Below are positions 130 through 64,000 of a stretch of DNA of 64,000 nt, in pieces. The notes beneath the pieces are model-generated. The model was not told the origin of the DNA. It ran no database searches and saw only the letters and a program-made list of their open reading frames with translations. How positions within the stretch are numbered: the first letter of the stretch is position 1; every line of letters starts with the position of its first letter. Where the stretch lies: NCBI GenBank assembly GCA_032358255.1, contig JAULBX010025209.1, positions 1-64,000 of the forward strand. The letters are read 5' to 3'. The position numbers and the translations under genes were made by a program. Source of the DNA: Heterotrichella gracilis. Taxonomy: Eukaryota; Sar; Xanthophyceae; Tribonematales; Xanthonemataceae.

Positions 130-3100
130 CATGCATGTATCTGAATCGCAGGGGGCGCACTGTGGCAGTGGGATTGGCCACCTCTCCAAATGTGGCAAAA
201 GGGCACATTTCCCTCCACCCCATTGTGCAATCAGCATTGGGGGCCAAATGCCACAGCCACATCACCCTGCACACAATTCACCCCCAGCCACCCCAGCCAG
301 GAGTGTGCGTCATTTTGCATCCCCGCCACCAGGGCACAAATGCAGCCGCCAGCAATGTACAGCGGCTGATCGACGTGGTTTCGGATCTGGCACCTAGGGT
401 TTTCACGTCATGGTTGGAAACCCTAACACCGGGCTCTGACACTGAGCCCACCATCAGTGGCCAAAACCCCAAAGCAGGGTTTTCCAGCAATCCCAAGGGT
501 GTGGTTCTGCACACCGGCTCGGTGCTTTTGTTGCAAGGGAGGGATAAATCAGGGGTGCAGGGGGTGCAGCCCGTGGTGGAATTTGTGCTGGAATTCAAGG
601 TCCCGTCCACAGCCAGCCGCAGCGGGTCCAAAACATTCCGGGACCCCGTTCTTTTCACCCCGTCCCACATTTCCACCTGCAAATGTGAGATTCAGGTGGG
701 CACTGCCATGCAGCGGGCAGCCAATGAGGTGGTTCCACCTCAGCAAGGGAGGGGCCTAAATCAGAGGGGGGCTCAGGGGGTGCCTGAAATGCCGGAATTT
801 CTGCATGTCATGGAGCAATGCCTGCGGCGGGTGGTGCCCAAGATGGCATTTGATTTGAGGGCCATGCTACAGGTGTGTGTAGAGGGATTGGGGGTTGGGA
901 GGGGGGAGCAATGTAGGTACAAGGGGAGTGATGCAATCAAATGTGATTAATTGACATCTGGCTGACAATCAAAATGATCACCTTTGATTGTGCGGGTCGA
1001 CCACTACACAATTAATAGCCCTACCAATATTGGCCCCATTCAACTCCATTTTCCCCACCCCCCGCACCCATGTACCTTCTCCAAGAATTTTCCACACCAT
1101 TGAACCCTTGGCCATATCTCCCGTTGACCATGCAGCAGAACTTAGGTTATGGTTTCCAATCCTGTCGTTTCCCCCCTTACCTCACAGGCATCTGGCGCAC
1201 CTCCCCTTGGGGGGCTGTTATTGATAGGCCCCCATGGGAGTGGCAAATCCAGGATGGTGCAGCAAGTGCGGGGTGCGCTGGAGTCCCACCCCCAGTGCCT
1301 GACCCATGTGGTGGTGGTGGGGTGTCGGGAGGTGGGGGGGGAGGGGGGGGATGCGGCCAGGGCAGCCATCATTCCTGCGGTGCGTGCGCTGGAAACCCTA
1401 AAACCCTTGTTGGGGAGGAACATTGAAGCTCAAAAGCCTTGTTTGGTTAAAAGAAATGTTGCAGGCTAGATCATTACAAGAAAGTATAACTGGGGCAGGA
1501 AAGGGCTCAATGTGAAAGTTTCTCTGTATGAATGTTAGTGTCAGTGTGTATGCGTGGTCAGCGCTGTGCTTACATATGTGCAATCTGGGGACACATCCAC
1601 CTCAACTGGAGAAGTCAAATACACCACCCCCGGGCGTCCTGTTTCCAAGCAGCAACTCTGATGCGTCTCCTCAGAACTGTGAACCTTGTACCATAATGCC
1701 TACTCTAATAGCAGGGAAAATAAGGACGCCCTTGCCCCACAGATCCAGGAAGCCCTGGCATGCGCCCCTTCCCTCCTAGTTTTTGATGACCTTGATGCTC
1801 TCGCCCCTGCGCTGGAGGGCGGGGAAGAGGGGGGGGTGGATGCCGGGGGGGCTGCAGGCCTGGTGCAGTGGCTGTGTGAGATAATACAGGGGCTGCAGGA
1901 GGGGAGGGACCGGCCAGGTACATATCGTAAACCCTTGACACATAGAGTCATACCTTTTTACATAAACACCATGCCATGCTAAGCCATGCTATTCTATGCC
2001 ACAGCCTATGTTAGGGTTTAGGCCTATGCTCTTCATGGAGATTGCCTCTGGAAATTGCCTCATATGCACAGCAATGTTTCCTGCTGTTGATTGTGTTCAT
2101 CGAGCATAAATCATGTTCAGGCACCAGCGGGTGCCAGTGCGCATATGCGCCACAGCATGCTGGATGCCACCTTGCAAAAACACCACACTTCTCCTTTACA
2201 ACCCCTCCAACCCCCCATCACCCCCTTTGCACCTTCTCCCCTTGGTGCAGTTGCTGTTGCAGCCACATGCGCAGACGCAGCAGCGGTGGCGGCACCCCTG
2301 CGTGCACGCAATCCCCTCACCATTGACCCCCTTCACCCATCTCCCCCCATCCCCTCTCCTCTCACCCCTCACTTTCTAGGGGAGGGAGGACATCACTCCC
2401 CACCCCAAAACCCCTACCCAACCCCCACTCCCCCCCGGTGCAGTTGCTGTTGCAGCCACATGCGCAGACGCAGCTGCGGTGGCGGCACCGCTGCGTGCAC
2501 CCGGGCGGCTGGATGGGCATGTGGTGTTACCACCCCCTGGCGCCCAGGGGAGGGCGGGCATGCTGGCTGCGGGGCTCGCGGCAAGGGGGGCGATGGCACA
2601 ATCTTCGCATGTGGAGGTGGGTGAAGGGCGTCTCCTTTGTTTTGTGTGGATGGTTTGCGGGGGTGTTGGGGAGGGTATGGTGCATTTTTTGCGGGATGTT
2701 TGGGAAGGTTTTGGTATTCAACCAGGTGCGATGAACTCCACTGCCCACTGCCACATGACCATCACCCAGACTCGTACCCTTCTGATAGGCCAGCCGAGCC
2801 TAGAGCTGCGACGCAGCAGAAACCCTAAACCCTAACCTAACCGCAAGAAAACCCTAAACCCGCAGGGCGTCGAGGGCTACGATGCTGCTGACATGTCAGT
2901 GCTGGTGGACCGGGCCATGCACTCGGCTGCCCGCCGCTTCATGTTTGAAAACCCTAAATGGTACAATCAACCAAGGTGCCCAACAACTGCATCCACACAT
3001 GCACATACCGCCAGCGCCGTCGCAGCAGAAACTACAAACCCTAAACTAATCGCAAGAAACCCTAAATCCGCAGGGCGTTGCCAGCCGCGCCGAGGGCTAC

Positions 3101-6100
3101 GATGCTGCTGACATGGCAGTGCTGGTGGACCGGGCCATGCACTCGGCTGCCCGCCGCCACATGGCGCGACGACAGGCGCCGGCTGTGGCGGGGGCGCTGA
3201 CCCGCACACCCATGGGTGGGTTCTGGTTGTTTGAAGCGTATTTGGCTGTCTGCATCACAGACGGCTTGTGGATGCGCGTGTGTGTGCCCTCAGGCATGAT
3301 TAGAGGGGCGTAGTTTTTTATTTTCTAGTATTGTGAGTCTTTATTTATATATCACGTGTTTGAGTGATGGTGTGTGGGCGCAGGTGTGTGACAATGGGTG
3401 GATGGGTGGCTGGGACGGTGTAGAGGAGTGGGGGGGTGTACTAGTATGCATGTGGTTGTCAGCAGACTGAGAATACCACCCACAACCCTTGTAGTACCCT
3501 GCCATGGTTGACATCCTCAGTAAGGGTTGTGCACCTTGGCTTGCAGGCACGATTCGGGTGGAGGAAATCGACCTGGCGGCTGCGCAGCGCAATTTCACCC
3601 CCGCGGCATTTTGGGGGGTGGGCCAAATGTCGGGGGCAGGGGGCGGCGGGGGGCCTCGGGGGTGGGAGGATGTGGGGGGCCTGCCAGACGCGTGCGCCGC
3701 ATTGCGGGAAATTTTGGAGATGCCGGTGAAATACGCGGGACTCATGGCGGGTGCCCCTCTTCGGCTGAGGACAGGTGCGTGGTGTGTGTGTACAGGCAGG
3801 ACAACATATAATTCAATCATTTTTTTTAATTATTTATTAAATCTATATTTTGCAGCTGCGCACTGGTGGGTGCGGGGACAGGCTGCATCACGTTTAATTT
3901 TCACATATTCTCCTGAATCTGTACCTATAATGTGTCCTCTAAGCTCTACATTCCATTCCCCATCCGTTCCCTCCCCGTTTCTCCCCCAGGCTTACTTCTG
4001 TATGGCCCCCCTGGCTGCGGCAAGACACACATAGTGGCTGCGGCGCTGGCTGGTGCGGGGGTGCGCTGCGTGAGCGTCAAGGGGCCAGAGGTAAGCGAAT
4101 GGAACCCTATCAAAACCCTGCCAGAAAGCGAGGCACTATGCAGTTCTATGGAGGTCCAATGTATGCCTCATGAAAGTCCTGCTAAAACCCTGACGAAACC
4201 CCTACCTCAAGAACTGCGCTCGGACAACCTCTCAACTGCTCTTATGCAACCTCTCAGATACCTACACAAGCTTCACAAACACCCTGTAAAAACCCTCCCC
4301 CCTGCAGGTCCTCAACAAGTATATCGGTGCCAGCGAGGCGGCTGTGCGCGACCTGTTCCGCCGCGCATCCTCCGCCGCCCCCTGCGCCCTTTTCTTCGAT
4401 GAGTTTGACTCCCTTGCCCCCCAGCGCGGCCACGATTCCACTGGTGTGACTGATCGGGTGGTGAATCAGCTGCTGACCGAGCTGGATGGGGTGGAGGGGC
4501 TGGCAGGTGGGGTGTGGGTGTTTATGTGGTGGTGGTGGTGGTTGGAAATAAAACGTAAAATTAAACAGCTCCCTTGCGTCCCTGCGGGCTTAGGGTTTAG
4601 AGGGTAGGGATTAGGGCAGCTCTGCTGGTGTGACTGACCGTGTGGTGAACCAGCTGCTGACTGAGCTGGATGGGGTGGAGGGGCTGGCAGGTGGGTGGTG
4701 GTGGTGGTGGTGGATGGCAGTGGTGTGCTGGGTGGGGTGTGAAAGAAAACATAAAAAAACAGGTCTCTTGTGGGCCTGCGGGTTTAGGGTTAGGGTTTAG
4801 GGCGGCTTTACTTATGCGACTGACCATGTGGTGAACCTGGCAGGTCAGGTGAGGGGTGGTGTGTGCCCGGTGGTGGTGGTGGTAGTGGTGGCATGAAAGT
4901 GAATAAAAGACGCAGTTTCCTTGGCCCCTTTCCGCTCCTGGCAAGGCCACGACTCCACTGGTCTTGAAAATTTTTTTTAGTTGTTTTGCCCTACTGTGAA
5001 CAGTGTCCATGCAGTTGAAGTTTAAATGCTCCAATTTCTGTGCAGGCGTGGTGGTCATTGCAGCCACATCCCGCCCCGGCATGCTTGATGCTGCGCCCTG
5101 GGAGGATGGATCGGCTTGTGTACTGCGGTTTCCTCTAACAACCCCATGCAACCTGCAAAGATTATCCAAAACCATACCCAAAAACCTGCTGTAAAGGCTC
5201 ATGCAGCTAGAAATTTCAATTGATTGATTTCATGTGCAGGCGTGGTGGTCATTGCGGCCACCTCACGCCCCGACATGCTGGATGCCGCCCTGCTGCGCCC
5301 GGGCAGGATGGACCGACTGGTGTACTGCGGCTTTCCAGATGCACATGAGCGCTGCCAAGTGCTGCGGGCGGCTGCAAGGGGGCTGAAGATGGAGGAGGGG
5401 GTGGACCTGGACGCCATCGCAGAGGTTCGAACCTGTTCTTTCCCATTGTGCATATCTTACTGGGGGCTCGCCTTGAATCATATTGTGTTCCCTGCGCATC
5501 AGGACTTTCCCATCCGGGAAAGTCCTCAAAGAGATTATATGTCTATTATTTGCATTGCTTGCGGGGGGTTTCGCTCACCTTCACGTTGCAAAGGGTTTAG
5601 GGTTTAGGGTTTCCTGGATGCCGGCCTGTGCACAGTGCTCCCAATATACCCTTTGTCGTGGCGTGCACTATCTGACAGTACCCTTGATTGGGGTTTGGTT
5701 CAGGTTGCGGAGGGCTTCACTGGTGCCGACCTGCGCGCACTGCTGTCTGAGGCGCAACTGGCAGCTGTGCACCAGAGGTTGGACCAAGAACAGGTGGGGA
5801 AAACCATCAGGGGAGGGTAACCAAGAACCCTAGGGTAGGGTAACCAAGAATTCTAGGATACGGCAACCAGAATCCAGAAAGCCTGAACTGGCAGCGGTGC
5901 ACCAGCAGGGGAGCAAGAACAGGTAGGGAAAACCCTTAGGATAGGGCAACCAACAACGCTAGGATAGGGCACCCAGAAAGCAGAAACCCTAAACTGATGG
6001 CAGTGCACCAGCCGTGGGACCGAGAACAGGTACAAGAAGCCTAGGTAGACCCCTAGCTTACGACTTGTAGGAGCCCTAGGCAAAGCAACGCTAGTCGTCT

Positions 6101-6739: not shown

Positions 6740-6744
6740 TTTTA

Positions 6745-14424: not shown

Positions 14425-17134
14425 CTAGTCCACCTCCCCTGGTTCCGACCCATCATTCGACCGCGCATCAGCCGGCGTATCCTCCACCTCTGCCACCGGT
14501 GCCACCTCAGGCTTGTCCTGTATCGCTGCCACCTTGCCCTTCTTCCCCTTGCCCTCCCCGTCTTTCTTCCCCTTGCCCTCCTTGAGCTGCTTGCGCATGT
14601 CGTATGCGTCCTCCCCGTCGGCGTAATATTTCTTCTCCACATCCTGAACAAGCGAAAACCATTGGTTTAGGTTGGCCAGATACATAAGTTTAGGCTTAGA
14701 CATGTCATAGGCGTCCTCCCCACCAGCGTAATATTTCTTCTCCACAACCTGCACGGCCAGGCAGGAAACCCTTGGTCAGGCACCACCGTTCATCAACACC
14801 ACCCACCCGCAGGTTCTGCTCCCCTCCATATCCCGACCCGTCACGCTTTCACACCCATTTCCATCACCACCACCCACCCCTATCTTGTACCCCACGTTTG
14901 CGTGTAAAGGTGGAAGGCAACCTTATTGGTCACACGCACGTGTAGCCACACATGCATCGCGCCAATCTCCACCACCCACTTGCACCCACCCGTACATGCT
15001 ACCCACACCCACTCACCCACCCACCAGCTCCTCACCACCCAATTGTAATTTGTACCCCCGCATCTGCGTGTACAGCTGGACAGCGCCGTTATGGGTCACA
15101 CGCACCCCACGCCCACCCACCCACCGGCTCCCCACCACCCACCTGTATCTTGTACCCCAGCGTCTGCGTGTACAGGTGGAAGGCGCCCTTGTTTGTCACC
15201 CGCACATGCAGAGACACATACTCCGCATCAAACACATCCCTCATGCCTCGGTCTGCACAACCAAGGGGGGAGGGGGGTGTTAGGGTACAGAACGGAGGAG
15301 GGGGGGAGGAGGCGGCAGGGGCAGGGGCAGGCAGAAATTGATGTCAATGTCAATATTTCTCTTGGCAACTACTAATTACTCTTGCACGGGGGGAAATGCA
15401 TACATTGTCTATTTATGTACATCCCATGTGGCATGGGGAGGCAGGCAGGGATGCGCCCCCCGCATAAAAACCATTCCCGCATGCGAAAATGGCGGGACGG
15501 CGTGTACCAGTGATACATCACATAGAGGTGCTGAGGTGAATTGGAACCCTTCAAAATTATGGATGGTGTGTACTACACAGCCAGCTGGCCACATAGCACG
15601 GGTTGTGCACAAGGCAGAATGGGGGGGTGATAAGGGGGCAGTCATGCAGCTGCAGAAGAAATTCGCAGCACGGAGAGTTCAATTAACCCTAAGGGTTTCA
15701 GGGTGTTTATATCAGTTGCTGTTGTATGTGGCAAGTTAATTCCCGCTCCACTGTCCAGGGTACAAGGCGACAGGTTCAAGGGTTTGGTTTGGACCGAGGG
15801 TTTTACAACCAGGCATTTAGGGTTTAGGGCCGAGGGTTTTAGGGTTTGGTTGCGCACGTGCTGCTGACATGAGCTTGGTTGCCAGCCCCAGCTTGCGGTG
15901 CGTGCGCGCCACTGCCAGCGAGGTGATGTGCCCATGGATCTCGGGAGAGTCTTCCTCCCTGGGATGGCAGGAAATTTTAAGAAAACATAGTTACAAGATT
16001 TATTTGACAGTCACATTAACTGAGTACACCTGTAGAAAACCATTGAATTTCTAGTAATGAGTGGCTGGGTATGTGCCCATAGACCTCGGGTTTATGGGGA
16101 GAGTCCTCCTCCCTGGGAAGGCAAAAATAAACTGAATGGAAAATTTGTTGAACACGCCCGATGCGTGAAGGTGCTAGGGTCAGGGTCCACTTAGGGTTTT
16201 GTGCGGCACGCACTCAGCCAGTACACAGCCCCGGCATTGAGCGGGGGTTTTGGGGTTTCTCTTGCGTATTCAAGGGTTTCATGCTGCGAGCCCTTTGACC
16301 AGCGAGCAGCCCCCAACCCTGGCGAGGGATTTGTGAGGCGTTGTGCTTTAGGGTATTCAGGCTTCAGGTGCGCGTTCCAGGGTTGCATCGTGCATGGTCA
16401 AGGGTTTCAGAAGTTGCGTGCAACGTACATCGTTGCCAGCACGTATCCCACACCCTTGGCGAGGGTTTGTAGCTGCAAGGTCAAGGCTACCCCAAAGGGT
16501 TTTAGGGTTTAGGGTGCGTACATCTTTGCCAGCACGTATCCCACGATCTTGCCGTCATAGTCCTCCGCAACATACAGTAGTTGGGGCCACGACAGCGTAT
16601 GGTAGAAGTAGTACTGCAGGCACAATGGGAAAGTTTAGGGTTTAGGGTTTTGACGCCTATGTGCCAGGTCAGCGAGTGGACGGTGGTGCAACCAAAGCTA
16701 GCATGGGCTTCCCACCGCTCCCTCCTATGAAAGCTTTGGTTGTACCACAATGCATGCGTGTACACTGTGGGTGGGCCACCGATGGAAGTTCACCCACAGT
16801 GCACATGCATGCACACGCCAATGCAAAGTAACCAAGAATGACAAACGACCATTCTTGGCACGCAACGGATGAGGTATGATATAGGTCAGTGTAGAGAAGG
16901 GCATCGCCACCCTTCCTGTCCCCCTGACATCGTGATGCATGCATATAGTGCACAGCCCCAAAAACTGCTCCCAATTGCCCATAACGTGCGCCCAACTTTG
17001 CAACATAAACCACTCGGAAACTTCCAATTCCTGCTTCTGCGCACCTTTAATTGGTAGTTCTCTGGTAAGCACATGAGGTTGCATCGTTGCATGGACAGGA
17101 GGTCATCGACCGTGGCCTGCCGAATGCACACCAT
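14425..17134 (-). CDS. NAA10: N-alpha-acetyltransferase 10, catalytic subunit of NatA
   Basis: GNAT-fold enzyme that acetylates N-termini of nascent proteins (Ser, Ala, Thr, Gly, Val, Cys after Met removal) in complex with NAA15 at the ribosome. Five exons: 17134-17045 ([27 protein letters not shown]), 16613-16522 ([28 protein letters not shown]), 15958-15858 ([19 protein letters not shown], the acetyl-CoA-binding R-x-x-G-x-A motif), 15252-15143 ([19 protein letters not shown]) and 14643-14425 ([19 protein letters not shown] then a Lys/Glu/Asp-rich tail). All phases join, giving 203 residues, the usual length. The start is the Met of MVCIRQA, conserved in the family, not the in-frame ATG three codons upstream. 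Four of its exon borders are copied into its introns. Confidence 0.96.
14697..14752 (-). repeat. Relic copy of the 5' end of NAA10 exon 5
   Basis: Encodes [15 protein letters not shown] with its own AG acceptor, about 110 bp upstream (on the minus strand) of the functional copy [15 protein letters not shown]. It lacks the continuation RKQL and runs into intron sequence. Confidence 0.88.
14880..15112 (-). repeat. Two relic copies of the 3' end of NAA10 exon 4
   Basis: The segment coding the end of exon 4 (THKGAF-like, [12 protein letters not shown]) with its donor is repeated downstream in intron 4 at about 15056-15112 and 14880-14945. Copies diverge further with distance; frame changes and substitutions accumulate. 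Confidence 0.85.
15816..15850. repeat. TTTAGGG-like motif cluster in NAA10 intron 3
   Basis: TTTAGGGTTTAGGGC and a further TTTTAGGGTTTGG sit directly after the donor of exon 3 on the minus strand (exon ends at 15858). The telomere-like DNA therefore abuts a functional splice site. Confidence 0.75.
16060..16470 (-). repeat. Relic copies of NAA10 exon 3 start and exon 2 end
   Basis: 16063-16125 repeats the acceptor and first bases of exon 3 (GGAGGA..., CCGAGGTC..., CATGGGC-like). 16425-16470 repeats the 3' end of exon 2 (GGATACGTGCTGGCAA with changes). Both lie in the introns adjoining the exon border they copy. Confidence 0.75.
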
Positions 17135-41674: not shown

Positions 41675-41694
41675 GGGGAGCTGGCGTAAACCCC

Positions 41695-41760
41695 AGCTTG
41701 GGGTTTTCCGGTGGGGATCTCAATACTGGCAAGGTCCTGGGGCTGTGAGGGGTGCTGGCG
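41695..41760 (+). repeat. Copy of the FTHFS 3' coding end beyond the stop
   Basis: CTGGCAAGGTCCTGGGGCTG and its flank recur after the true stop (41674), so the 3' UTR carries a duplicate of the last codons. AAACCCCAGCTTGG-type words are repeated three times to 41830. Confidence 0.8.
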
Positions 41761-41839
41761 ATTTCACAAACCCCAGCTTGGAGTTCCCTGCTTCCTGCAG
41801 GAGATGGCTGCGTCACACACCCTAGCTTAGGGTTTCCGG

Positions 41840-46719: not shown

Positions 46720-47020
46720 CCTGCCAGAGGAATATTTCTGATAATCTCCCTCTGGCCATGTGCACAGTCTGCATGATGCACGCCCCTTCTTCCCTGATCA
46801 TCACCCTGTCACCCACCCCTTGCAGCTGCACCGCAGACAAATAAAACATAGCAATCTGGGTGCGCATACAGAAATTGGGTTTGCGGAATAACTCCCCTCC
46901 TCCACCCCCACTCAACACCTATCATCCTCCCTTTCGATCTGCTGTTGTGCTGCCACCTGGCAGCTCGCCACCCACACCCGCAGGGCAGCAGTCATGCGCA
47001 CAGCGATACCATGACTCCCT
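46720..47020 (-). repeat. Two relic copies of the BORCS5-like 3' exon downstream of its stop
   Basis: 46930-47010 repeats the CTGCTG-GTCGCC-CCTGGCAGCTCGCCACAC-CCGCAGGGCAGC block of 47185-47235. About 46785-46830 repeats the AGCTGCA...GGGTGATAGGG part again. They lie beyond the stop codon at 47094. Confidence 0.75.
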
Positions 47021-47093
47021 CCCTTGGTCGCCAGCATATCAACACCCCAGTTGTGCTGCGCCCATAATCAACGAGGCAATGGGTGAATACCCA

Positions 47094-51639: not shown

Positions 51640-53560
51640 ATCAAAATGACCAGTTGGGTGTAACAAGGAAGCCCTAAGAACGTGGGCTGCCGACTGGTCC
51701 AGTCTGGGCTCTTGGTGACATCTGCAGGCATATAATAGGGGGAGTCGTTGTATGTGTGACACCAGTACTTTGAGTACACCCGTTCTGAGCCAAAATAGCC
51801 AGATTAAAACAACTGACAACTGCCCACTGTTTACCTCCTATCTTCTGATGTCAACAACACTGTGACCCACCATACCAGGCAAAGTAGCCTCCTTTTTGCA
51901 TGCATGCATCTTGTCAACAAAGTAACTCTAAAATAATAGCGGAATAATAGCCTGTTCCCAAAGTCACGCGAAACAGTGCATGCATGCAAAAGAGGACCCG
52001 TTAACACACCGTTAAAAAGCCGGTTGTGCATGCAGCACTGCCCAGAGCAGCTGCCCACACAATGCATGCACACGCCCAAGCCAAGTAACGCTCGCAGACT
52101 CTGAAGACGTTCACCCAGCTCCTTCCAAACCCCACCAGAAGTCAAACTGAGTCTTTTAATGCTTCTTGGGGCGAAAGTCTTCCTGCTTTCGGACTTCGTT
52201 CACAGGTTGTAATTTTTGGCCAAGACGGTTTTGCCCCTGTCCCGGGGAGCAGAGGGTGTCTGTACGTATGTTGAAACAGGTGGAATTCCCGACGGGTGGG
52301 CTATCACTATGTACCGATAGATAGTCTGGTATATACTCCAGCGTTGATATTCACGTTGCTGTCGTTGTTGCACAGTATCGGCATCCGTTGTGCGGGTAGA
52401 TCCACCGGCTGTCAGAGTGGAAGGTCTTTGACGACAGCTGGGCACACAGTATCAACATCCTATCGAAGAGAGGACAAAGCTTGCCCCGGGCTTTGTTGAA
52501 CTTCGCTGGTGTAACAACTTTCACAAGGCGCACATAACTGTTGAGCGTTTCGGGTGACAGCCATCCCTGTTGGAGCAGTCCTTGGACCAGACAACTTTAA
52601 AGTGGTCTGCAAGGGAATGGACAACAACATGCTGGAACAAAGCTTGTTCATCACCCAAGGTGGTCAGGTAGGGCACTGAAGGCAATTTAAGCTCACCACC
52701 TTCACTTGCACCCTGCATCCTTGGGCTCAACCCAGTAGGTCGGCACTGGTGTGCAAGCCCTAGTCTCAAAGGTACTAGGGCAGCTCCTGTGAAAAAGGGT
52801 GCTTTCTGCACAGTGAAACAAGGCCAGTGACATGTATGCTCTGCGCACAGATACACCCGTGGCCGTGCGGGGTTGATTGGTCACTGTGCATGTGCGCATG
52901 CATATACACCGCATAAGTAGTTACAGCGTATTCAAGGTGGTCAACAGGGTTGTGATGCTGGGGCCGTTGTTCCTATAAGCCAATTTCGGTCTTCGCAAAG
53001 TGGCATCCAAAGTGGAAACCCTTCCATAGCCTATTTGCAACACACCACTCACGCGAGTCCTTCCTGGAGCCAATGTGTCTCGGGTGGTGTTTGTCGGTGT
53101 TGACAAAGCGCCTACCCTGAACCCTCACACACCCCTGTCTGGCATTGTTTTCCAATTTGTGCTGCAAGTGCGCACCCTCTGACTGGGAACCTGTCAGGAA
53201 ACCCTCAATCAACAAACCATGTGCACACCTTACACCAGTCCGCTTGCTTGCAGAGACGTGCGCAGTCCCACCCCATTTCACCTTGGTGGCTCGGTCAACA
53301 GTGACAGGGAGCTGCCATGGCTGAACTGAAACCAGCTGGAGCCAGGTACGACACTAGCCCCCTCTAGTGGGCACCGCAGCTTGTCATACGCCTTAAAAAC
53401 CCAACAACCCTGCACTGGCAGAAAGCCTAACACGGTGCATGGGAGACTCGAATTGGTTCATGGAGACTGGACTGGGGACTGGGTAGCCTTATGAAGGGGT
53501 ATTGGGTATGCAAGGAGGGGCGCACAACCACCAAAGCATATCAGCCAGATTATCACACCC
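51640..53560. other. Spacer, possibly holding a degraded mobile element
   Basis: Minus-strand frames at 52973-53281 (KRTGVRCAHGLLIEGF, KDSREWCVANRLWKGFHFG) and 52351-52533 (KFNKARGKLCPLFDRMLILC) have protein-like composition and follow one another on one strand, as in a decayed transposase. I see no catalytic motif or terminal repeats. The left end carries the F-box promoter. Confidence 0.3.
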
Positions 53561-53574
53561 CAATGAATGGTAAT

Positions 53575-53735
53575 CGGTGCAGGCGGCTTGCCTCTGGCAG
53601 GAAGAACACCCTGCCGAGGGTGGTGACCACCCTAACCCTCAACCCTACATCCTAATGGAGGGTAATTGGTGCAGGCGGCCTGGGTCTGGCAGGAAGAACA
53701 CTTTGTCGAGGGTGCTGAGCGCCCACCCATCATTA
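53575..53735 (+). repeat. Duplicated 5' end of the first LRR-Sfi1 exon
   Basis: GGTAATCGGTGCAGGCGGCT...CTCTGGCAGGAAGAACACCC at 53569-53622 is repeated at 53661-53710 (TGCAGGCGGCCTGGGTCTGG). The copies are separated by AACCCTCAACCCTAC-type sequence. Confidence 0.85.
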
Positions 53736-56700
53736 TTCGACAAAAAGAAAATCACGGCTGTGGACAAGGGGATAGATACCATCGATGAGCTCCCCAGGGC
53801 TTACCAGGCCATCACGGTAGGGTACAAGGCACATGCAAATCATCATGCTTCATCTGGCTATTGCTAATGCAGTTGGGCCAGTGGCATCAAAAACACAAAC
53901 AGTGTTCAACATGTGAAATTGTCCTTTTTGGCGATTAGCCTTGGGTTGATAGTATTTAAAACCTTCCCCATGCCCCCATGCGCCATTCCACAGGTGCTGT
54001 ACGTCAGCAAGAACAACCTCACCTCCCTCAACGGCCTGCACCAGTTCCCCGCCTTTCAAGACTCTGATGCCCTCCCACACCCACCCACACCCACCGCCTC
54101 TTTTGCAACCCCCACCCCCCTTGCAGGTGCTCTACATCAGCAGGAACAACCTGGCCTCCCTGCATGGCCTGCACCAGTTCCCTGCCCTCAAGACCCTGTC
54201 AGCGGCTGACAACCTTCTGTGCGACTTGGATGACGTGGACAGGCTGGCGGGGGCCACCCCTCACCTGGAGGGGCTCATGCTGGAGGGCAACCCACTGGCA
54301 GAGCTGCCAAATTACAGGTGCAGGACTGGAATGTAGGGTTTATGGTTTTAAGTTCCTAAATTCCTTAAAGCATAAATTGCAATAAATCTGAAATGACATA
54401 AAGGCATTATATTTCAAAGGAATTGGAGAACGCAAATCCTTTTTTATTATCATCTATTATTAGCTTGCAACTTGAACAACCTCAACTATGGGACTATTGA
54501 TCACATTTTCATTGATGTATAAGAAACTGAATTCATTTAATTTAATTTAATTCGTGTAGGGCCCACGTGATCCACCGGCTGCTGTGGCTGCGCCAGCTGG
54601 ACAACCGGGCAGTGGAGGAGGGGGAGAGGGTGGCGGCTGCGGGGGCGCTGCGCAGCGAGGGGGCAATGCTGCGGGTCATGGTCAGCACCGCATGCATGGT
54701 GCACAAGCTGGTAGGGCTCAGAACCCTGGCAAGAACCCTACTGACAAACCCTTGCAAAACCTTGATCGCAAATCTGCAACCCCTGGGAGTCGAGATCAAT
54801 AATGCAGCTACTGATGACTGGTGTGATGGAAAGTAAGCAAAAAAGGTTTTGATCATCACCGTTGATGCACCATGTCTCCCCTGACTGCGCAATCATCTCT
54901 GAAAGGCCCCCATTTGAAGCAACAGGGGGATGCAGGTCACGTGAATCCCCCACCCACCCCCCACCCACCGCAGGCACACATTCGTCAGCTGTCTAGGGTG
55001 CACCTGGAGATGGTGGTGGTGGGGGGCGGCGACGGGTGGGGGGTGGGGGGTGGTGGGGGGTGCGACCCCCTGCTGCTGCTGCAGCTGTGGGACTACGAAG
55101 GGGAGCTAGGGGTGGAGGTGCGAGGCGCCGGGGATTGGAAAATCCTTGCTTGTATTTTACCAGCAGTTTTGCTATAGTCATGCGTGTTTTTATCCCGTTT
55201 CAAAAGGTATAGTCAATGCGCCCCTTGGCCTCTCTCAAGGCGGACATCAGGTCATCCCTTGCCAAAGGCAATCACGTTCCACCACCCAAATTTTAGTAAA
55301 TTAGAATATATACAAGAATCTCAAATGTTGAAGTAAACCATGGCAAGGCCAAGTAATATATAATTTATAATCAAGCGTGCAAGAATCCTGATGTGTTTTC
55401 ACATTGCATGCACCCCATCTCCTTGCACAAGATATCTGCAACATTGCAAGGCCAGTAGCGCTAATAGTACACAGACGATAAATAATTCACAAACATTTAC
55501 AAATATGCTCCCTCCCCCCTTCCTACACAGGACCGCAAGTCCATCTGCATGGCCCTGCGCCGAGAGGTGACCCGCCGCTACCGGCGCCTGGCAGCGCTGC
55601 AAGGGGGGCAGCCGCGCACCAAGGGGGGAACCAAGGGAGGTCAGATGTGGTTCACCGCGTTTGCACAGGTGGGATGACGATTTAGTTTAGGTTGATTACT
55701 TTCAATGAATTGCGGCAATATATCCAAATTAGCAGCCATTGTGACCAATCGCTCACCGTTCCCTCCTGTCCGAGCACTGCAGTTGCAAATTTGATGTGGA
55801 GTGCTTTAATGCATTGGGCTTTCCCTGCCCTTTTAGGGTATACCTTGCCCTTTAGGGTATTGACAATACCCGTGCCCCCGCAGGTCATGATGGCGCAGGT
55901 TGAGAGTGTTGCTGCCTGCCTCAGGGGGGTGCAGATTGTCAAGGAGGAGGGGAGGGCACTGGGGTTGTATGGGGGGGTGGGGGCGGCGGCTGCGGTGCAG
56001 GAAAGGTGGGTTTATGCTATTGTGGTATTTCTGAAATGCCTGGGCATTGGATATTTCGCGCCGTTGGGCGTGTGTGAAGTTGTGGTGCGGGTTGAAAGTG
56101 TGCTCTCTTAAACTCGACATCCAACGTCTCCCCCATATTCTAAACTTTACACCTACATGTGTGCGGGGAGGGGTTGCTGAAGTAAGCCCTCCCTTGTGTC
56201 AACCCTACACCCTGAACCCTGTACCCTGATTTGTGCAATAATGCACTGCTTGTTGTCTGCAAGGCAATGGGTGGGCTGGTGGCTGAAGTAAACCCTACAC
56301 CCCAAACCCTAAAACCCTATATGTACGCCCTGATTTGTGCAGGGAATCCCTGCTCGTTGTCTTGCGCGAGGCCATGTGTGGGCTGGTGGCTGAAGTAAAC
56401 CCTACACCCCAAACCCTACACCCCTATGTGTACGCCCTGATTCGTGCAGGGGATCCCTGCTCGTTGTCTTGCGTGAGGCGATGTGTGGGCTGGTGGCTGA
56501 AGTAAACCCTACACCCCAAACCCTAAAACCCTATATGTACGCCCTGATTGGTGCAGGGAATCCCTGCTCGTTGTCTTGCGCGAGGCCATGTGTGGGCTGG
56601 TGGCGGCCTGGCAGGCGGGGGAGGAAGCGGAGGCGGAGCGTGTGGAGCAGGGGGTCAGGGGGTTGCAGGTGGGGTGTGGGGTGGAGGGAGAGGGGACGGG

Positions 56701-59700
56701 ATGCAATATGTGGGGCCACCATGATCCACATTCTGTTTCTATTTTTTTTACAATGATGCCTTGATGTAGAAAATGGTTGCAGAGACGTGACCACATGTGT
56801 CATCAGACCTACTCACCATCACCCCAACTTTTTGGTACCCTGTAAACTATATTGACAGGTTAACGGGTTGGGAAAAGAATGTCATCCTTAAACCCTCCTC
56901 CCCCCTCCACACACACACGTTAAATGCTACACATACTCTCACTCCCTCTATATGTCCTAACATGGTACATCTCCCCCTGTGTGCAGCAACAGCTGGAGAC
57001 CTGCTCAGCCATGCACAGGCGAGTCCCCCTCACCGACCTCCCCACCAACACCCCCATACACCACCCCTCTGGCCCCACAAAACGCATCCAAGCGCACCCC
57101 CCCCCACCGGCCCACATGGACCTCTCCCTGCAGCACATGGGGGGCCGGGCAGGGGGGGCGGAGGGGGGAACCAGCCGCGCCAACAGGCTTCGATCACTCA
57201 GGGCCAGAAATGGTGCAACCCCTGTTCCTGGGAGTGCATGTGACCCCTACAGCCAGACACATGATCCCTTTATCAGCCCCCGTGGCGACCCACATGGCGG
57301 CCCCGCCACCGCCCCTTGTGACCAATCCCAGCGACTGTCACATGACCCCTTCCTCAGCCCACGTGGCGCCCCCCGCGCCGCGCCATGTGATCACCCACCA
57401 CAGCCACCACATGACCCCTTCACCAACCAACATGCTATCCCTGCCACTGCCCCATGTGACCAATCCCAGCAGCTGTCACATGATCCCTTCCTCAGCCCCT
57501 ACAACCAATTCCTTGAACTGGCCCATGACCCGTTCATCAGCCCCACTGACCAATCCCAGCAGCTGCCTGGGGATCCCGACAACTGCCTCGGGATCCCGGC
57601 AAGGTCAAGGCATCAATCCCAGCAACCAGCACATGACCCCTTCATCAGCCCCACTGACCAGTCCCAGCAACTGCCTCGGGATCCCCACGCCAGCCCGAGG
57701 CATCATCAACCCCCGCAACCAGCACAAGACCCTTTCATCAGCCCACATGACGCTGCGCACAGGGGTCTCCAACCGCGGGAGGTCTCGCCTGTGCATGTGC
57801 CTGCGCGGCGGGAGGCTCATCCCATGGCGCCCTACCCACCTACCGAGTCTTGCAGGTGCGTGGTGGCTTGGTGTGGAGGGACTGGGATTAACATGTCTTG
57901 TATGTACAAAATTGCATCTTGTTTCAGTAGCAATATAAAGGATGTGTTGCCAAAAGCATTGTTATAAAAACCTGAAAATGAAAGAAACCTATGTGGCTAA
58001 GACCTGCACATCATCCGCTCTCATGCAAGGGGCGGAGGGATTTCCTTTTGCCGTAAACTCTTCCACATATTCACTTTGAGATGAAAGTGCCATTGCTGGA
58101 TACATGCTGACAACACTTAATCCCCTCAAATCCAGGTCGAGCCTGAGCGCCACATGCAACTGGCAACCGCCCTCGGGGCACCCTTCACCTGCACAGCCAC
58201 CACAGCCACCACACCATCAGCCACACCCACCCACCCTCCTAGATGCGCTACAACGCAAGTGGGGGCCACATGCCGCACAGGGGCCGCCACACCACAGGCA
58301 GGAAAAGCAACCTGGGATGCGCGCAGTGCCTCAGGGTGGGAATAGTGACCTCCCAATGTGGCATGATTTACACCCCTTGGAGGCAGCTTGGGACCCTGAA
58401 ATGGAACCTCCCAGGCACATGGGGTCATGTGATGCCCCACTTATTGACCTGAGCTCGCCGGAGCACGCCAAACCCTCGGCAAGGGTTTTGGACCGGAGCA
58501 AACCCTATGCTGGGGTTTCGGACCGGATTGAACCCTCGGCAAGGGTTTTGGACCAGGGCAGTGTGTTAGAGTTTGACGAGGTGGGGGGAAGCAGCAGCAT
58601 GAGCATGCGAGGAAAGCAGTCTGTGCAGCTGCAGTTGGCTCTGCTGGAGCAGGAGTGGGGGCATGGGGGGTCTGAGGAGGGGTGGGGAGCTGGGGAGGAG
58701 GGGTGCGCCCACACTGTGCGCCACAGCTTGGATGCCACGTCAGCAGGCAGCAGCAACATTATGAGTCACAGCTTGGATGCCACGTCAGCAGCGGGCAGTA
58801 GAGCACAGTCCCAGGCGCATCCCACCCTGGCTGAGCTGGCTTGGGGGGGTGGGGATGTAGGGGGAGTGGGCTATATGGCGGGTGGTGGCCGTGTGGAGGG
58901 GGTGGTGCCCTTCTACAGGGGCCATGTTGATGCCACATCAGCAGCGGGCAGTGGAGTGCAGTCCCAGGATGCCGGGCAGTGGGCGAGGGGGGTGGAGGGG
59001 AGGCACAGCGGGCAGTGCCATCCTGCAGAGGCCATCCTGCGGTGTGTGGCTGGCAGGGACGGTGGCGGAGGTGGCTGCGGGATGGATGCAACGGCGACGC
59101 CAGGTGGCAGCTTGCCTGGGCATGCGCCTGCGCCACAGGCAATGGCAGGTGGCTGTGCGTCAACGTCCATGTCAGCGCCACATGTAATGCCAGGTGGCTG
59201 CATGTCAGCGCACGCCCCCATGCAAGGTGGCTCATCAGCAGCGCACGTCCCCATGCCACACGCAATGCCAGGTGACGGCACGTCAGCGCACGCACCTATC
59301 CCATCCGCAGCGCCAGATGGCAGTGCATTAGCGCCCACGCCTGCGCCAAATTTAGCGCAAGGTGGCGGCCCACCATTCCCCATGCCTATGCCACATGCTG
59401 CTCCAGGTAGCGGTGCCCCGGAGGGTTCCCGAGATGGGCCAATGGGTGGGTGCCAGCTTGCGCTTGTGGGGCCAGCAGAGGTGCGCCAGCTGGCGGATGG
59501 TGGGGGCGCCTTAACGATTGCAGTGGGCAGCTGTGGTGATGATGAAGAGGTGTCGGCGGTGCGGGGTGATGAAGCAGCGATGGCATCAGCGGGGCAAAGC
59601 CGTGACATGGCGATGACATCAGCAGTGCAGGGTGGTGATATGGCGACGAGATCAGCGCCAGGCTTGGCACTTGGATCGGATGCGCATGGGAGGTGGGTGG

Positions 59701-62700
59701 CAAACCTTGCATGCATATGTATAGCAACTATATGGGGCTGGGTGTTGGGTGCAGCATACTGTTGAAGCAGATTGATGGGTCAACATTTGCATCCGCTGTC
59801 AGTCAAATGCTCCTGGGAAAGTGTCGGTGGCTTTGCAGCAATGCATGATTAGACAAATATATGCATGATAGGTGTGGTCCCACACTTCCAACGTGCATGT
59901 GCCTTTCCTCCCCTTGCAGGCCTCCCAAGGCATCTCTTCAGGGCATGGGACACACCCCGCCCCACACCACCCACCCACAAACCACATCCAAACACCTACC
60001 AACCACAGCCGTCTACCCTCCATCATACCACTCCGACCACCAACCACCACACCCCACACACCCACCCACCACAGCCACCTCTATCCACCCACCACCCTAC
60101 ACCACCCATCGAAAGCACCTCTTGGAAGCCGCCGCCCAGTGCCTGTCGAGTCGCCACCTGGCGCGCCGAGTGCTCGCCATGTGGCGGCTGGCCACAGTGC
60201 GCCATGTGGCGATGCGCCAGCTGGCGGCCAGGCGTGATGCGCGCTGCCTGGCTGACACCTGGCATGCGTGGCAGGTGCACACGCATGAGGCCAGGTGGGT
60301 GACGGAGCAGGGTGGATGTGCCGTAGGGATGGGGTTTGGGTATCCTAGGGTGACTAGAAGGATTTGTTTTGGCCGAATTGTCCTTTTGAGCCCAATACCC
60401 AGAACCGTGAACAGACACACTTCACAGTCTGATAAAAAAAAAAATACAACATAAATAAAAAGAGGCCAGCTCGTACCTGTTGGTTTCACATTTCTGGCAA
60501 AGTTCCACCCCCTGCTGACCTCACCTTTCAATCCCTCCCTGCTCCAGGCTCCTGAGATCCAGACCACCACAGCAGGCGCGCATCGAGCCCGCGCCCTCGC
60601 CACCCGGGTTTTCTCCGCCTGGCGAGCCCACGCATCCCAATCCCCATCCGCAACCCCGCCGGATCCCCGGGACTCCCTACTAGCCACCTACCACTGCCAG
60701 ATGGCAGCACTGCGGCGGGCGATGGGGGCGTGGAAAGGGTACATGTGCGCGCATGTGGCACCGCGGGATCGCCAGGTGGCGCTTGCGCAGGGGCATTGGC
60801 GTCGGCGGGTGCTGCGGCGGGTGGTGGCGGGGTGGTGGCGGGCAGCAGCGGTGGGGGGGGCGGAGCGGGCGGTCGTGGCGGCGGCGGGGCGGCGGCGCAT
60901 GGGGCGGATGCTGCGGGGGTGGAAGGGGGAGGTGGGGGGCGAGGCGCGCAGGAGGGAGAGTAAGGTGAGGGGCTGCATTATGCATGTTATCTTGGCCAGT
61001 GCACGGAGATGCCTGTTTGACCCAGCAGGAAACCCTATGCACTCCCACGCTCTGCCACGCTCTACCAGTGTTTCAAGTTGCTACATCATAGCAACTGCAA
61101 TGTGCGCTCCATCCCATGCAGCTTTGGCAATCCCTAGACCCTATAGGAACAAGGTGTTGGCAAACCCTGCACCCACCCTGAACCCAAACCCTCTACCCTG
61201 CAGGCGTTGGCAGCCCGCCATTGGCTGCGCACCCTCCTCTCCTCCTGGCGAAACACCACTCATGCTAAACCCTACTCGTGAAACCATAAACCCTAAACCC
61301 ACTTTGTGCAGGCGTTAGCAGCCCGCCATTGGCTGCACACCCTCCTCCTCCTGGCACCACCGCCACAACTCCCCTTGAACCCTAAATCCCGAACCCAAAC
61401 CATGCAGATGTTGCCAAATCCTAAAACCTAAGCCCTCCCCCTGCAGGCTTTGGCAGCCCGCCATTGGCTGCGCACCCTCCTCACCACCTGGCGCACCACC
61501 ACCACCCACCGCACCACCCACCGCCAAGCCATGCGGCGAGCGGTGGTGGCCCATCAGCTGCGGGTGCTGGGTGCGGCGTGGGAGGGGTGGGTGGCGGCGG
61601 TGGGTGCTGGGCTGCGCAAGCGAGGGGGGGAGGTGGCGGCGGTGACGCACAGGGCGGAGGTGCTGAGGACACAGGTGGGGGGTGGGGGAAATGGCGCAGG
61701 ATGTGTGGGGTGGTGAAAATTGGGTGGGAGGGGATAAATTAAGCAAAGTCTGCTTTTTACGCCTTTCACGTCAGCCTGATCGCAGTATCCGCATCCAACC
61801 AGGGCTTCACAAACCCCCGCGCTGCCACTTCCCCATGCGCATGCTGCACCCCTGGTGGCACCCCTGGCTGCACGACCTGTGGTTTCCAATTCCCTACAAT
61901 GGATTGAAGGGATATTATCTGTTAGTCCCCTTAAACACAAACTGAAATCTTCTCATTTTCCAGGCCTTCCATGCCTGGATGACCGCGGTGAATGAATCAA
62001 GCGCCGCCGCCCACGCCGCGCACCGCCACTTTCTCAAGCACACGCTGCACCTCTGGCGGGAGGCCATGTGGCGGGCCAGGCACAGCCGCCACCTGGCACA
62101 CGTGGCACAGGTGGTGTCGCGTGGCAGGCGGGTGCGGGGGCTGCGGGCGGTGGTGCGGGCGTGGGCGGAGGCGGTGGGTGGGGACTGGCGAGGGGAGCAA
62201 GGGGACGACGGGGATCCCCAGCTTGGCGTGCTGGATTTGGCAATTGCAGCCATTGGTGGGGATCCCGAGCTGCGCACCGAGCCTGGTGTGGATCTTGCAC
62301 AGTCGCCGGCGGCAACAGATTCCCAGCAAGGGATGACGGGCAATGGGAATCCCCAGCTTCATGCCTCGCTGTCCCAGGAAGGGCCATCTGTGGATCCCCA
62401 GCCTGGTGACCGTGCCAGCGATCCCCCCCAGACGGTGGCGGCGGGCGGCGGGGGTCCCCGTGAGGCACGTGGGGACCAGCTTGACGCCGCCCTGTCCCAG
62501 CTTGTTTCCCAGGATGCGCTCATCTGCTCCCTGCAGCAGGAGCTGGTGGGGACTAGCAGGCAGCTGGCACAGGCTCTCAAGGTGGGAGGACTGGTGTTGA
62601 TATTATTAGAAATTTGATGTTTATTACTATTGTATTGTTTTTAAGCCTGCACAGGCACTGAAGGTGGGAGGACTGTGTCTTTGTTGCAGCTGATGATAAC

Positions 62701-64000
62701 TGCTGAAATTTTTATTATGATTATGAGTTTTGTTCTGCATTGATTTGGTTGCGTGCTTATGTTGGGTTTGGTGGCTGGGGTGGTAACTAGGGGTCGCAGA
62801 TGTGTGATGCTTTCAAGCTGCATCGGCAGGCGACCATGCGAATTTGTGCTCTGTTCCACCATTTCCCTTCCCAGCGCATTGTAGCTAGCATATAATTTAC
62901 CCTTGTGCCTCCGCGTTACACAGGCCAATCCTCGACAACAGCAGCAGCCTCAGCCACCAGCGCACCAGCACCCCCCACCCCACCACCCACAACAGCAGCC
63001 CCACTCCCGCCCCCAGCACCCATACCAGCCCTACCCCCCACCACAGCCACAGCCACAGCCACACACCCACGGGTCTCCCTCGGGCATTCGAGTGCGAGAC
63101 TTGCAGCGCCAGCTGGCGGGTGCTGCCACCCTGGCCGATCAGCGGGTGCGGGTGGTGGAGAGGCTACAGGCGGCGCTCACGGAGGCCCAGCGGCGGGGGT
63201 TGGGAGGACGGAGGGGTTCCCCCGTGCCGGCGCAAGCGTCGGGGGGTGGGGCGGCACAGGGGCCCAAGGGCAGCAATCAGGACCGTCTAATGCTGGCGCA
63301 CCCAACGAGGGGGTCTCCCGTGCTCACGCACACACTGGATCGGGGGCCAAATGGCAGCAGCCTGGTCCCTCCAGAGGGTGCTTACAATGGTGCAGGCTGT
63401 GAGCCGCATCCAGTGCAGGGCGCACGCTTGGCGCCGGGTAACAATCAGGCTGACATCCGGGGGAGAGAAGCGCTGGCGCAAGGGGCGCAAGGGCAGGCCC
63501 AGGCCCAGGGGAAGCCATGCAGTGCGCAGCTGCTGCAGGTGGGTGCAGAGGAAAGGGCAGAGCTGGAAGGGATTGTGTACACATACGCACACGATTTTGA
63601 GTGCACACAGCGCCGCCTCCCCGCCTCCATCCCAAAACCCCCCTCAACTTGAACCGAATCTGTGTATCAGATTTCACCAATATTCATTTATTTTTACTAA
63701 ATTTTATAAACAGCGTGGTAATGAATGTTCTATGGTATCCTTGACTGCCAAGCTACCAGCACCAACGTCTGGTGCACGCCATAGAGCGCCAGCTGGACAT
63801 GCCCGTAATATAGATGCAATTGCTATTAGTATTGTAGGTTTACTTGGAATTTTTCCAAAGATGATATGTTTTCACTGAAATTTTTTATGTATTTGCAGTC
63901 CTTGACCGCGGAGCTGGCCCAGCACCAGTCCCTGGTGCACGCCATGGAGCGCCAGCTGGATTTGCACGAGCACATGGGGGCCCACATGGGGGCACTCATT
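53675..64000 (+). CDS. Giant LRR / DPF-repeat / Sfi1-repeat / coiled-coil protein (3' partial)
   Basis: More than 1,900 residues in 15 exons: 53675-53816, 54127-54317, 54560-54710, 54974-55117, 55531-55668, 55884-56005, 56557-56668, 56987-57855, 58136-59692, 59920-60274, 60548-60964, 61447-61674, 61964-62581, 62924-63538, 63899-end. All phases agree. The N-terminal 130 residues form a capped LRR (VLYISRNNLASLHGLHQFPA, LEGLMLEGNPLAELPNYRAH). Next come a Pro-rich region with seven DPF motifs and a Gly/Ala/Met-rich repeat region. Then about ten Sfi1-type repeats follow (RRVLAMWRLA, LADTWHAWQ, ATRVFSAWRAH, LRRAMGAWKGY, LRRVVAGWWRA, LKHTLHLWREAM, LRAVVRAWAEAV), which in Sfi1 bind centrin. Coiled coils are at the end (LQRQLAGAATLADQRVRVVE). 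Likely a centriole, basal-body or fibre protein. The start codon is not resolved; its 3' end lies outside. Confidence 0.82.
53990..54190 (+). repeat. Duplicated LRR exon 5' end (VLYxSxNNLxSLxGLHQFPA)
   Basis: A relic copy at 53995-54060 (VLYVSKNNLTSLNGLHQFPA) and a functional copy at 54127-54190. The first lacks a donor and the TLSAADN continuation. Confidence 0.87.
56222..56600 (+). repeat. Four tandem units (about 110-118 bp) spanning an acceptor and exon start
   Basis: Unit: GTGCAGGGAATCCCTGCTCG, TTGTCTTGCGCGAGGCCATG, TGTGGGCTGGTGGCTGAAGT, then AAACCCTACACCCCAAACCC plus TATGTACGCCCTGATT. Copies start near 56232 (poor), 56340, 56456 and 56557. Only the last continues into coding sequence (VAAWQAGEEAEAERV). 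The telomere-like CCCTAAA words are inside the unit. Confidence 0.92.
57255..57755 (+). repeat. Coding tandem repeats carrying DPF(I/L)SP motifs
   Basis: Seven HDPFISP / HDPFLSP / HDPFTNQ / QDPFISP motifs, spaced 20-40 residues and interspersed with DQSQQL and PRGDPH/PRDPH units. At the DNA level the unit is CACATGACCCCTTCATCAGC with variation. Confidence 0.88.
58465..58562 (+). repeat. In-frame coding repeat with embedded AAACCCT/AGGGTTTT
   Basis: Three 36-39 bp units of AAACCCTCGGCAAGGGTTTT plus GGACCGGA, coding PSARVLDRSK / PYAGVSDRIE / PSARVLDQGS. The CCCT...AGGG halves form short inverted repeats. Confidence 0.85.
58725..59400 (+). repeat. Degenerate coding repeats (DATSAAGS and MPGG-SAHAP types)
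   Basis: (H/R)SLDATSA-GS / HVDATSAAGS occurs three times (58730-58960). From about 59095 a unit of about 20 residues with (M/A)PGGxxSAHAPMP recurs about six times. Expansion is by coding minisatellite. Confidence 0.75.
61200..61485 (+). repeat. Triplicated exon 5' end (ALAARHWLRTLL)
   Basis: CAGGCGTTGGCAGCCCGCCA-TTGGCTGCGCACCCTCCT occurs at 61201, 61312 and (functional) 61444. The intervals are full of AAACCCTAA-type words. Only the last copy continues in frame (TTWRTTTTHRT). Confidence 0.92.
63735..63970 (+). repeat. Duplicated 5' end of the last visible exon
   Basis: 63738-63805 copies 63899-63965 (SLTAELAQHQSLVHAMERQL) with substitutions, including a stop in the equivalent frame (ATAGAG for ATGGAG alters the Met; GCCAAGCTACC for GCGGAGCTGGCC). 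Confidence 0.85.

Follow-up and report, generated by a model that had tools for sequence, protein, structure and literature searches.

In mammals, telomeric repeats occur within chromosomes as insertions at double-strand breaks (PMC2246262, PMC7215372), and a target duplication accompanies the insertion at a minority of loci, 3 of 66 in the horse with 2 further complex loci (PMC7215372), 6 of 130 in rodents, and 4 of 25 in primates (PMC2246262); among human interstitial telomeric sequences, none lay in exons and 31% lay in introns (PMC7215372). The window analyzed here, the first 64 kb (64,000 nucleotides) of contig C271 from the alga Heterotrichella gracilis, contains many duplicated exon ends with telomere-like sequence between the copies. 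The likeness to the mammalian loci lies in a telomere motif placed inside a chromosome; by comparison with the insertions those reports describe, events in the alga are dense, lie mostly at exon ends, have target copies of 30 to 110 bp, and carry degenerate inserts.

The closest single precedent that we found for a duplication across an intron-exon boundary is the potato RdRp gene (PMC4974935), which has the same anatomy, one duplication spanning the junction between intron 1 and exon 2 and a second, of 83 bp, lying inside the intron; it is a single case that created a new intron, whereas the alga has dozens of cases in apparently existing introns, usually with an unchanged predicted message. 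Tandem duplication of AGGT exon segments (PMC3443670) is also local and hides the extra DNA by splicing, but both splice sites of the new intron come from exon copies, whereas in the alga the extra copy, which we term a ghost, lies within an intron that continues past it. Daphnia neointrons (PMC4202315) share with the present loci direct repeats from staggered breaks that are common to an intron and the adjacent exon, together with the lengthening of introns by repeated breaks; the repeats measure 4 to 12 bp, and a telomere motif goes unmentioned in the text available, whereas our copies measure at least 27 bp, a bound set by the search settings, and under these settings no direct repeats of 4 to 12 bp bounding a new intron were found. 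Direct repeats of 4 to 30 bp at intron borders have been described (PMC11782384), and neither that paper nor PMC12730881, in the portions available, bears closely on duplicated exon ends. In our searches of the open-access literature on telomeric repeats with intron gain or algal introns, no title or opening of an abstract among those listed named the pattern.

We suggest that most spaced cases consist of copy, telomere-like filler, and copy, in which a staggered break close to the end of an exon took up the filler and left a long target duplication, and we give this reading a probability of about 0.5. How introns lengthen and how alternative splice sites originate are old questions with few datable examples; one genome with many events of many ages, each ghost beside its live copy, makes rates, break positions, and survival measurable, and the pattern ties intron growth to telomere-like sequence.

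Duplicated exon ends and their decay

The single draft assembly comprises 68.5 Mb in 903 contigs, from which we sampled, besides the window, 23 stretches of at most 10 kb each. Two of these (L009 and L013) were excluded, with GC contents of 0.35 and 0.38 and tetranucleotide correlations with the window of 0.36 and 0.45; the correlation was at least 0.85 for the remaining 21. The excluded pair are perhaps bacterial or organellar contigs within the assembly. Window and accepted stretches together came to 272,406 bp, and loci shorter than 5 kb (L001 to L003 and L024 to L027) were left out of statistics at this scale. The gene models, 78 in number, were made ab initio by a small self-trained gene finder, with a homology check for PEX1 and formate-tetrahydrofolate ligase (FTHFS). 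The PEX1 fragment of the window matches a protein that we take to be from Asterochloris, with 77% identity across 77% of the query, and the FTHFS is 80% identical to a Myrmecia bisecta protein. On these matches the source would be a green alga, probably close to the Trebouxiophyceae, and none of the matching proteins listed, at least 120, was identical. The gene finder split FTHFS and a formyltransferase into two models each.

Self-BLAST of the window yielded 38 pairs in direct orientation, 37 of them no more than 500 bp apart from start to start, and 1 inverted pair, with no inverted pair within 5 kb. A more sensitive pass, once merged, gave 31 clusters; removal of 7 (3 in-frame exon repeats and 4 without a predicted exon) leaves 24, which fall in seven genes (PEX1, 14.4 to 15.2 kb, 22.5 to 27.1 kb, formyltransferase, FTHFS, 47.1 to 49.5 kb, and 53.7 to 64 kb), in agreement with the more than 20 cases in 64 kb and at least seven spliced genes of the original prediction. 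Self-alignment carried beyond the window gave the same picture: the 272,406 bp hold 177 pairs in direct and 2 in inverted orientation at distances of up to 600 bp, forming 116 clusters, or about 1 recognizable event per 2.3 kb, with a median identity of 83% and a median block of 76 bp (periods below 40 bp were excluded, as were 38 direct pairs more than 600 bp apart). Predicted exons are overlapped by 99 of the 116 clusters, while 9 are confined to introns and 8 lie elsewhere; 23 of the 99 exon-touching pairs are entirely exonic, and 11 have no exon edge inside the block. The clusters of the window other than the in-frame exon repeats are given below, with D as the start-to-start distance between copies, percentages as identities, and "live" denoting the copy attached to its exon.

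2238..2307, plus strand: PEX1, acceptor-side ghost of the exon starting at 2444; live copy 2431-2500; D 193; 94%
2809..2943, plus strand: PEX1, copy of intron end and exon head; live copy taken as 3018-3163; D 209; 84%; telomere-like stretch in the spacer
4441..4701, plus strand: PEX1, exon end, live as far as 4506; ghost at 4625-4701, which has its own donor; weaker third copy at about 4809-4901; TTAGGG-like sequence between copies
5034..5133, plus strand: PEX1, exon-start ghost; live exon 5240-5424; 82%; frameshifting gaps; found by tblastn
5756..6032, plus strand: PEX1, exon end (live to 5793) and ghosts 5886-5925 and about 5992-6032; found by self-match
14596..14754, minus strand: exon segment in two copies; D 105; 87%
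14864..15219, minus strand: live exon 15143-15244 and copies 15014-15105 and 14864-14953; 83-84%
26239..26344, minus strand: exon start and extra copy; 94%; 36-bp spacer (26274-26309) of degenerate telomere-like repeats
28980..29205, minus strand: duplicated exon edge, C-terminal part of formyltransferase; 76%
30520..30828, minus strand: duplicated exon edge, N-terminal part of formyltransferase; 73%
37045..37245, plus strand: FTHFS, ghost 37045-37132 and live copy 37166-37245; 72%; spacer of telomere-like repeats
37432..37500, plus strand: FTHFS, exon-start ghost; live copy 37607-37675; 80%; found by tblastn
38710..38811, plus strand: FTHFS, exon-start ghost; live copy 38893-38994; 91%; found by tblastn
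39053..39301, plus strand: FTHFS, exon end (live to 39109) and two copies; degenerate TTTAGGG-like sequence between; copies 2 and 3 share 71 identical bp
40200..40279, plus strand: FTHFS, exon-start ghost; live copy 40384-40463; 78%; found by tblastn
41321..41414, plus strand: FTHFS, exon-end ghost; live copy 41109-41203; 81%; found by tblastn
41638..41785, plus strand: FTHFS, adjacent copies in the last-exon region; D 77; 80%
46941..47231, minus strand: duplicated exon edge; D 242; 86%
53555..53724, plus strand: duplicated exon edge, LRR-protein gene; D 92; 82%
53991..54198, plus strand: ghost 53991-54066 and live copy 54124-54198; 84%
56172..56604, plus strand: array of 3-4 units of 106-107 bp, each an exon piece and telomere-like intron
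61177..61505, plus strand: exon start in three copies; live exon 61447-61674; telomere-like repeats between
62567..62675, plus strand: duplicated exon edge; D 82; 93%
63738..63968, plus strand: ghost 63738-63805 and live copy 63899-63968; 80%
15926..16123, no strand assigned: copy pair outside predicted genes; D 145; 75%
16424..16544, no strand assigned: copy pair outside predicted genes; D 93; 96%; telomere-like spacer
27959..28200, no strand assigned: copy pair outside predicted genes; D 159; 83%
59177..59299, no strand assigned: copy pair within a predicted intron; D 78; 84%

The in-frame tandem repeats lie in the large LRR-protein gene, at 57289-57744, 58471-58560, and 58776-58968, with periods of 69, 60, and 153 bp. 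Two related arrays of 125- to 126-bp units, largely predicted exon, occur elsewhere (L020, 3204-4604 and 7416-8317) and probably belong to repeat-protein genes.

Where one copy only was exonic, all 29 extra acceptor copies lay upstream and all 21 extra donor copies downstream, just as had been described from the sequence, and no new intron between two exon copies, as in the AGGT model, was found among them; with the addition of pairs in which both copies were called exon, the figures became 38 upstream and 5 downstream for acceptors and 31 downstream and 3 upstream for donors. This polarity is mostly geometric and expected of any duplication crossing a boundary, because such a duplication leaves the intact exon joined to the outer copy. 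When two FTHFS proteins and one PEX1 protein of algae served as tblastn queries, several stretches of residues matched twice, as a full exon and as a truncated copy. These matches support the duplications independently for the two genes, and the original observation of duplicated exon ends is confirmed.

Most ghosts retain their splice dinucleotide (26 of 29 acceptor and 18 of 20 donor ghosts, or AG or GT in 44 of 49 aligned), and their splice-site scores are lower than those of the live sites, at 5.04 and 6.60 respectively for acceptors and 5.92 and 6.47 for donors. The retained dinucleotides and the donor scores would suit working alternative exons under selection, as would a few ghosts that differ mainly at third positions (9 third and 1 second in the 5034 pair). 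We consider such a role quite improbable, however: over 70 pairs with one predicted exon copy, the differences by codon position were 124:97:261, close to 1:1:2, the ratio expected when one copy is neutral and the other constrained; many ghosts stop mid-exon and bear gaps; and homologous proteins hold each duplicated stretch once. No tandem exons with both copies complete and constrained were found among these pairs, the copies being partial and the pattern neutral overall, and selection of ghosts as coding exons was dropped as a general explanation on the codon-position pattern. The ghosts are mostly dead, and the copy detached from the exon body decays neutrally on the whole.

In the 21 pairs in which both halves align, some of them from the same array, divergence is 0.114 in the exon half and 0.173 in the intron half, a ratio of 1.52 against an expectation of 1.5. 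Repeats wholly within one exon have a period that is a multiple of 3 in 5 of 5 cases; over the 116 clusters, D modulo 3 leaves remainders of 0, 1, and 2 in 36, 46, and 34. Selection therefore filters the events in the expected way, leaving in-frame periods inside exons and boundary-crossing events at their edges. The proposed rise of divergence with distance was not borne out: where two ghosts of one exon edge could be compared, similarity was greater for the nearer ghost in 2 of 6 cases and for the farther in 4 of 6.

Further information on age comes from a second locus. On contig C297 (L003) there is an intron-containing partial paralog of PEX1, perhaps a pseudogene, whose exons differ from those of PEX1 in the window at 20 of 63 third positions. 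The ghost at 5046-5133 (within 5034..5133) is common to both genes, but C297 has only a single copy in place of the exon end and the ghosts at 4625 and 4809 of the window, and its 3' array has been reduplicated with a unit of about 106 bp, the intron parts of units 1 and 2 showing 3 differences in 68 positions and the exon parts of units 2 and 3 showing 0 in 36. The presence of shared and unshared ghosts indicates mixed ages: some ghosts may be about as old as the PEX1 gene duplication, and others appear to have arisen or been lost afterwards. The C297 locus also matches the formyltransferase region at 30548-30915 in inverted order and may be a rearranged copy of the stretch.

The paralog bears on another explanation, that the assembler joined haplotypes, strains, or overlapping contig ends in tandem. 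The source is indeed a single draft in 903 contigs, with foreign composition in 2 of the 23 sampled stretches, but an artifact of this kind is very improbable: the copies mostly differ by 5 to 30%, have frameshifting gaps, and show the codon pattern of one free copy; the first 20 kb of the window, used as a query, revealed no second haplotype; and the 5046-5133 ghost is present in the separate paralog.

Telomere-like sequence between the copies

D falls between 60 and 220 bp in 112 of the 116 clusters, with the same range inside and outside exons, two broad humps near 105 and 195 bp, and a sharp stop near 220 bp (45 periods at 160 to 219 bp versus 3 at 220 to 279 bp). Copy plus spacer exceeded 222 bp in 4 cases, against about 10 expected when copy lengths were shuffled against spacers. 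A limit of about 220 bp is near one nucleosome repeat, and a search for a 10-bp rotational periodicity of D detected none. Introns with a cluster have a median length of 336.5 bp (n = 90), compared with 250 bp for those without (n = 245). The process first proposed, a recurrent and genome-wide one that lengthens introns and leaves extra splice sites, is upheld by this difference and by the 116 clusters; its other half, tandem duplication, fits the 37 clusters whose copies are adjacent or overlapping and not the 79 whose copies stand at least 25 bp apart around spacers that as a group are enriched in the telomere motif. The whole period is not homologous in those 79, as it would be in a contiguous tandem duplication, and homology between spacer and flank (z > 4) was detected in 15 of 78 tested spaced clusters versus 2 of 78 controls.

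A 35-mer of (TTTAGGG)n had 51 forward and 50 reverse hits in the assembly and its reversed control had 0. Arrays of CCCTAAA lie within the first 300 bases of eight contigs (C70, C140, C526, C609, C712, C717, C770, and C824), the other hits being internal or at contig ends that could not be checked, and on this sequence evidence we take the telomere of this genome to be (TTTAGGG)n. The heptamer enriched in the spacers is that of the contig-end arrays, and the inserted motif thus matches the organism's telomere repeat. AAACCCT on either strand occurs 7.68 times per kb in cluster introns, 1.44 in other introns, and 0.35 in exons outside clusters. In the 82 pairs with a spacer of at least 20 bp, coverage by telomeric 6-mers is 13.4% within spacers and 2.0% when these are shuffled, compared with 3.6% and 2.9% in outer flanks of equal length. 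Compared with the less exonic outer flank, coverage was higher in 52 spacers and lower in 10, the rest being equal or without a flank (P = 5e-8); acceptor spacers (19 higher and 4 lower of 30) and donor spacers (14 higher and 1 lower of 22) both showed the excess. When 20 heptamer classes that share this composition were compared, enrichment was confined to the telomere class, at 13.0% versus 3.3% for the next. Had the motif been part of the duplicated unit beforehand, it would also be found beyond the second copy; on average it is not, which suggests that it arrived together with the copies or between them.

The motif almost always takes a single orientation within a spacer, the dominant one being C in 30, G in 23, equal in 2, and none in 27. 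In sense orientation the C:G ratio is 17:5 at acceptors and 5:8 at donors, and the acceptor bias may reflect selection for the branch-point-like CTAAAC; as an explanation of the motif itself, branch points were dropped because donor spacers carry it too. Across the window and L004 to L030, AAACCCT favors the sense strand of predicted genes (195, versus 88 for AGGGTTT). Cluster introns have the motif most densely about 10 to 40 bp from splice sites. Strong intronic islands lie between copies in 64 of 168 cases, compared with 11.3% of random intron positions, and outside genes in 4 of 62, compared with 2.4% of random positions.

Introners resemble the present system in adding intronic DNA genome-wide, but these spacers share the telomere motif and little else; beyond that motif, no element or sequence family common to the introns was found. 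The best 25 of 98 spacer-to-spacer matches were all telomere-like, and 3 of 82 spacers overlapped a match in another sampled locus. A filler templated elsewhere in the genome was rejected as a candidate, the first 20,000 positions of the window having matched only the C297 paralog, the contig-end repeat, and the dispersed repeat described below.

Proposed capture at breaks and its rivals

A telomere-rich spacer between outer flanks that are near background points to an insertion that created a long target-site duplication, with arrays expanding from it in places. Direct orientation of the flanking duplications, at 177 to 2, and a motif that lies between and not outside the copies are as this origin predicts. 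We propose that a staggered break beside an exon end would be repaired with capture of a short telomere-like filler and that fill-in of both overhangs would duplicate the 30 to 110 bp between the nicks, giving copy, filler, and copy. Should the duplicated stretch bear a splice site, splicing to the exon-attached copy would restore the message and the event would survive, the intron gaining 60 to 220 bp and a spare splice site; events wholly within exons would survive only in frame. Later unequal exchange between copies could generate arrays (copy, filler, copy, filler, and copy), and the ghosts would erode. More tentatively, introns of this alga may grow mainly by telomere-like capture at breaks beside exon ends, the C-rich insert supplying branch-point- or pyrimidine-like sequence to acceptors, so that telomere repair, through telomerase or telomere fragments, would be a standing source of intron length and spare splice sites, with insert plus copy limited near one nucleosome repeat.

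Several observations weigh against capture with target duplication. The 37 clusters with contiguous copies resemble plain tandem units, and breaks alone explain neither the scarcity of nonexonic copies (9 in introns and 8 elsewhere) nor the stop of copy plus spacer near 220 bp. No telomeric 6-mer is present in 27 of the 82 spacers, and spacer motifs are mostly short and degenerate, not clean tandem repeats. A polarity of the kind left by telomerase is unsupported, C-type positions numbering 51, 60, 41, 29, and 26 from left to right on the plus strand. AAACCCT is also commoner in cluster-free introns than in exons (1.44 versus 0.35 per kb), and telomeric motifs adjoin splice sites in cluster-free introns too. 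Finally, C297 provides no clean empty site, and the paralog may have lost copies.

Random recurrent tandem duplication of 60- to 220-bp units, by slippage or paired-nick repair, would also give boundary-spanning copies that are spliced out, with the exon half kept visible by constraint. The contiguous clusters are readily explained in this way, and the divergence ratio of 1.52, the in-frame filter (5 of 5), and the common range of D inside and outside exons are all as it predicts, but other data are at variance with it. We simulated contiguous duplications placed randomly and decaying at the indel rate measured in ghosts or at higher assumed rates, and the expected nonexonic share was 0.55, 0.49, 0.48, and 0.48 under four rate sets, versus an observed 17 of 93 (P = 2e-9 against 0.48). 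When small indels occurred at the measured rate and large ones at 0.03 per substitution, homology on the intron side was expected in 93, 84, and 70% of pairs in three exon-identity classes and was observed in 61, 42, and 44% (n = 18, 24, and 25); a very high assumed large-indel rate agrees with the two older classes, for which it predicts 41 and 29%, and fails for the youngest, for which it predicts 87%. Identity in spaced pairs drops steeply intronward of the junction and slowly exonward, as a trend only, and the blocks of 12 young spaced pairs that have an exon edge inside them extend a median of 11 bp into the intron versus 51 bp into the exon. Nor would plain duplication enrich the spacer and not the outer flank in telomere motif. 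The simple neutral tandem model was thus rejected on the exon bias and only partly on the lost intron homology, and we regard random tandem duplication as possible but doubtful.

Alternatively, telomere-like islands might preexist in introns and be fragile, breaks recopying the exon end and exchange or conversion refreshing the exon half, which would outlast the intron half. The association of islands with copies (64 of 168 versus 11.3%) and the deficit of nonexonic copies are consistent with this idea, as are a mosaic at L005 8768, whose exon part is identical at 42 of 42 positions while the intron half differs by 22%, and units P2 and P3 of the paralog array, with 0 of 36 exonic differences and 13 of 37 in the following intron, which a new duplication would also explain. 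Fragile islands are nevertheless an unlikely cause, given that the outer flanks of copies are not island rich, that the mean exon-to-intron divergence ratio requires no conversion, and that the quartet of real and ghost copies in the window (W) and paralog (P) has no clear sign of homogenization (20 of 105 differences between real W and ghost W and 19 of 112 between real W and real P). Capture of telomere-like filler at staggered breaks remains the reading that we prefer.

Other repeats in the window and assembly

Scans of the window for tRNA genes and Rfam families gave no matches. Positions 1-81, at the start of the contig, belong to a repeat of about 80 bp found with 94 to 100% identity on several dozen contigs, often at their starts, which suggests that the assembly probably breaks at a repeat family. 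A dispersed short repeat occurs at 17946-18027 and, inverted with respect to it, at 35011-35105, and is also present in L016, L020, and other contigs. Clustered histone hits were obtained on contigs C147, C160, C365, C524, C608, and C721, and the histone loci L024 to L027 are mutually similar.

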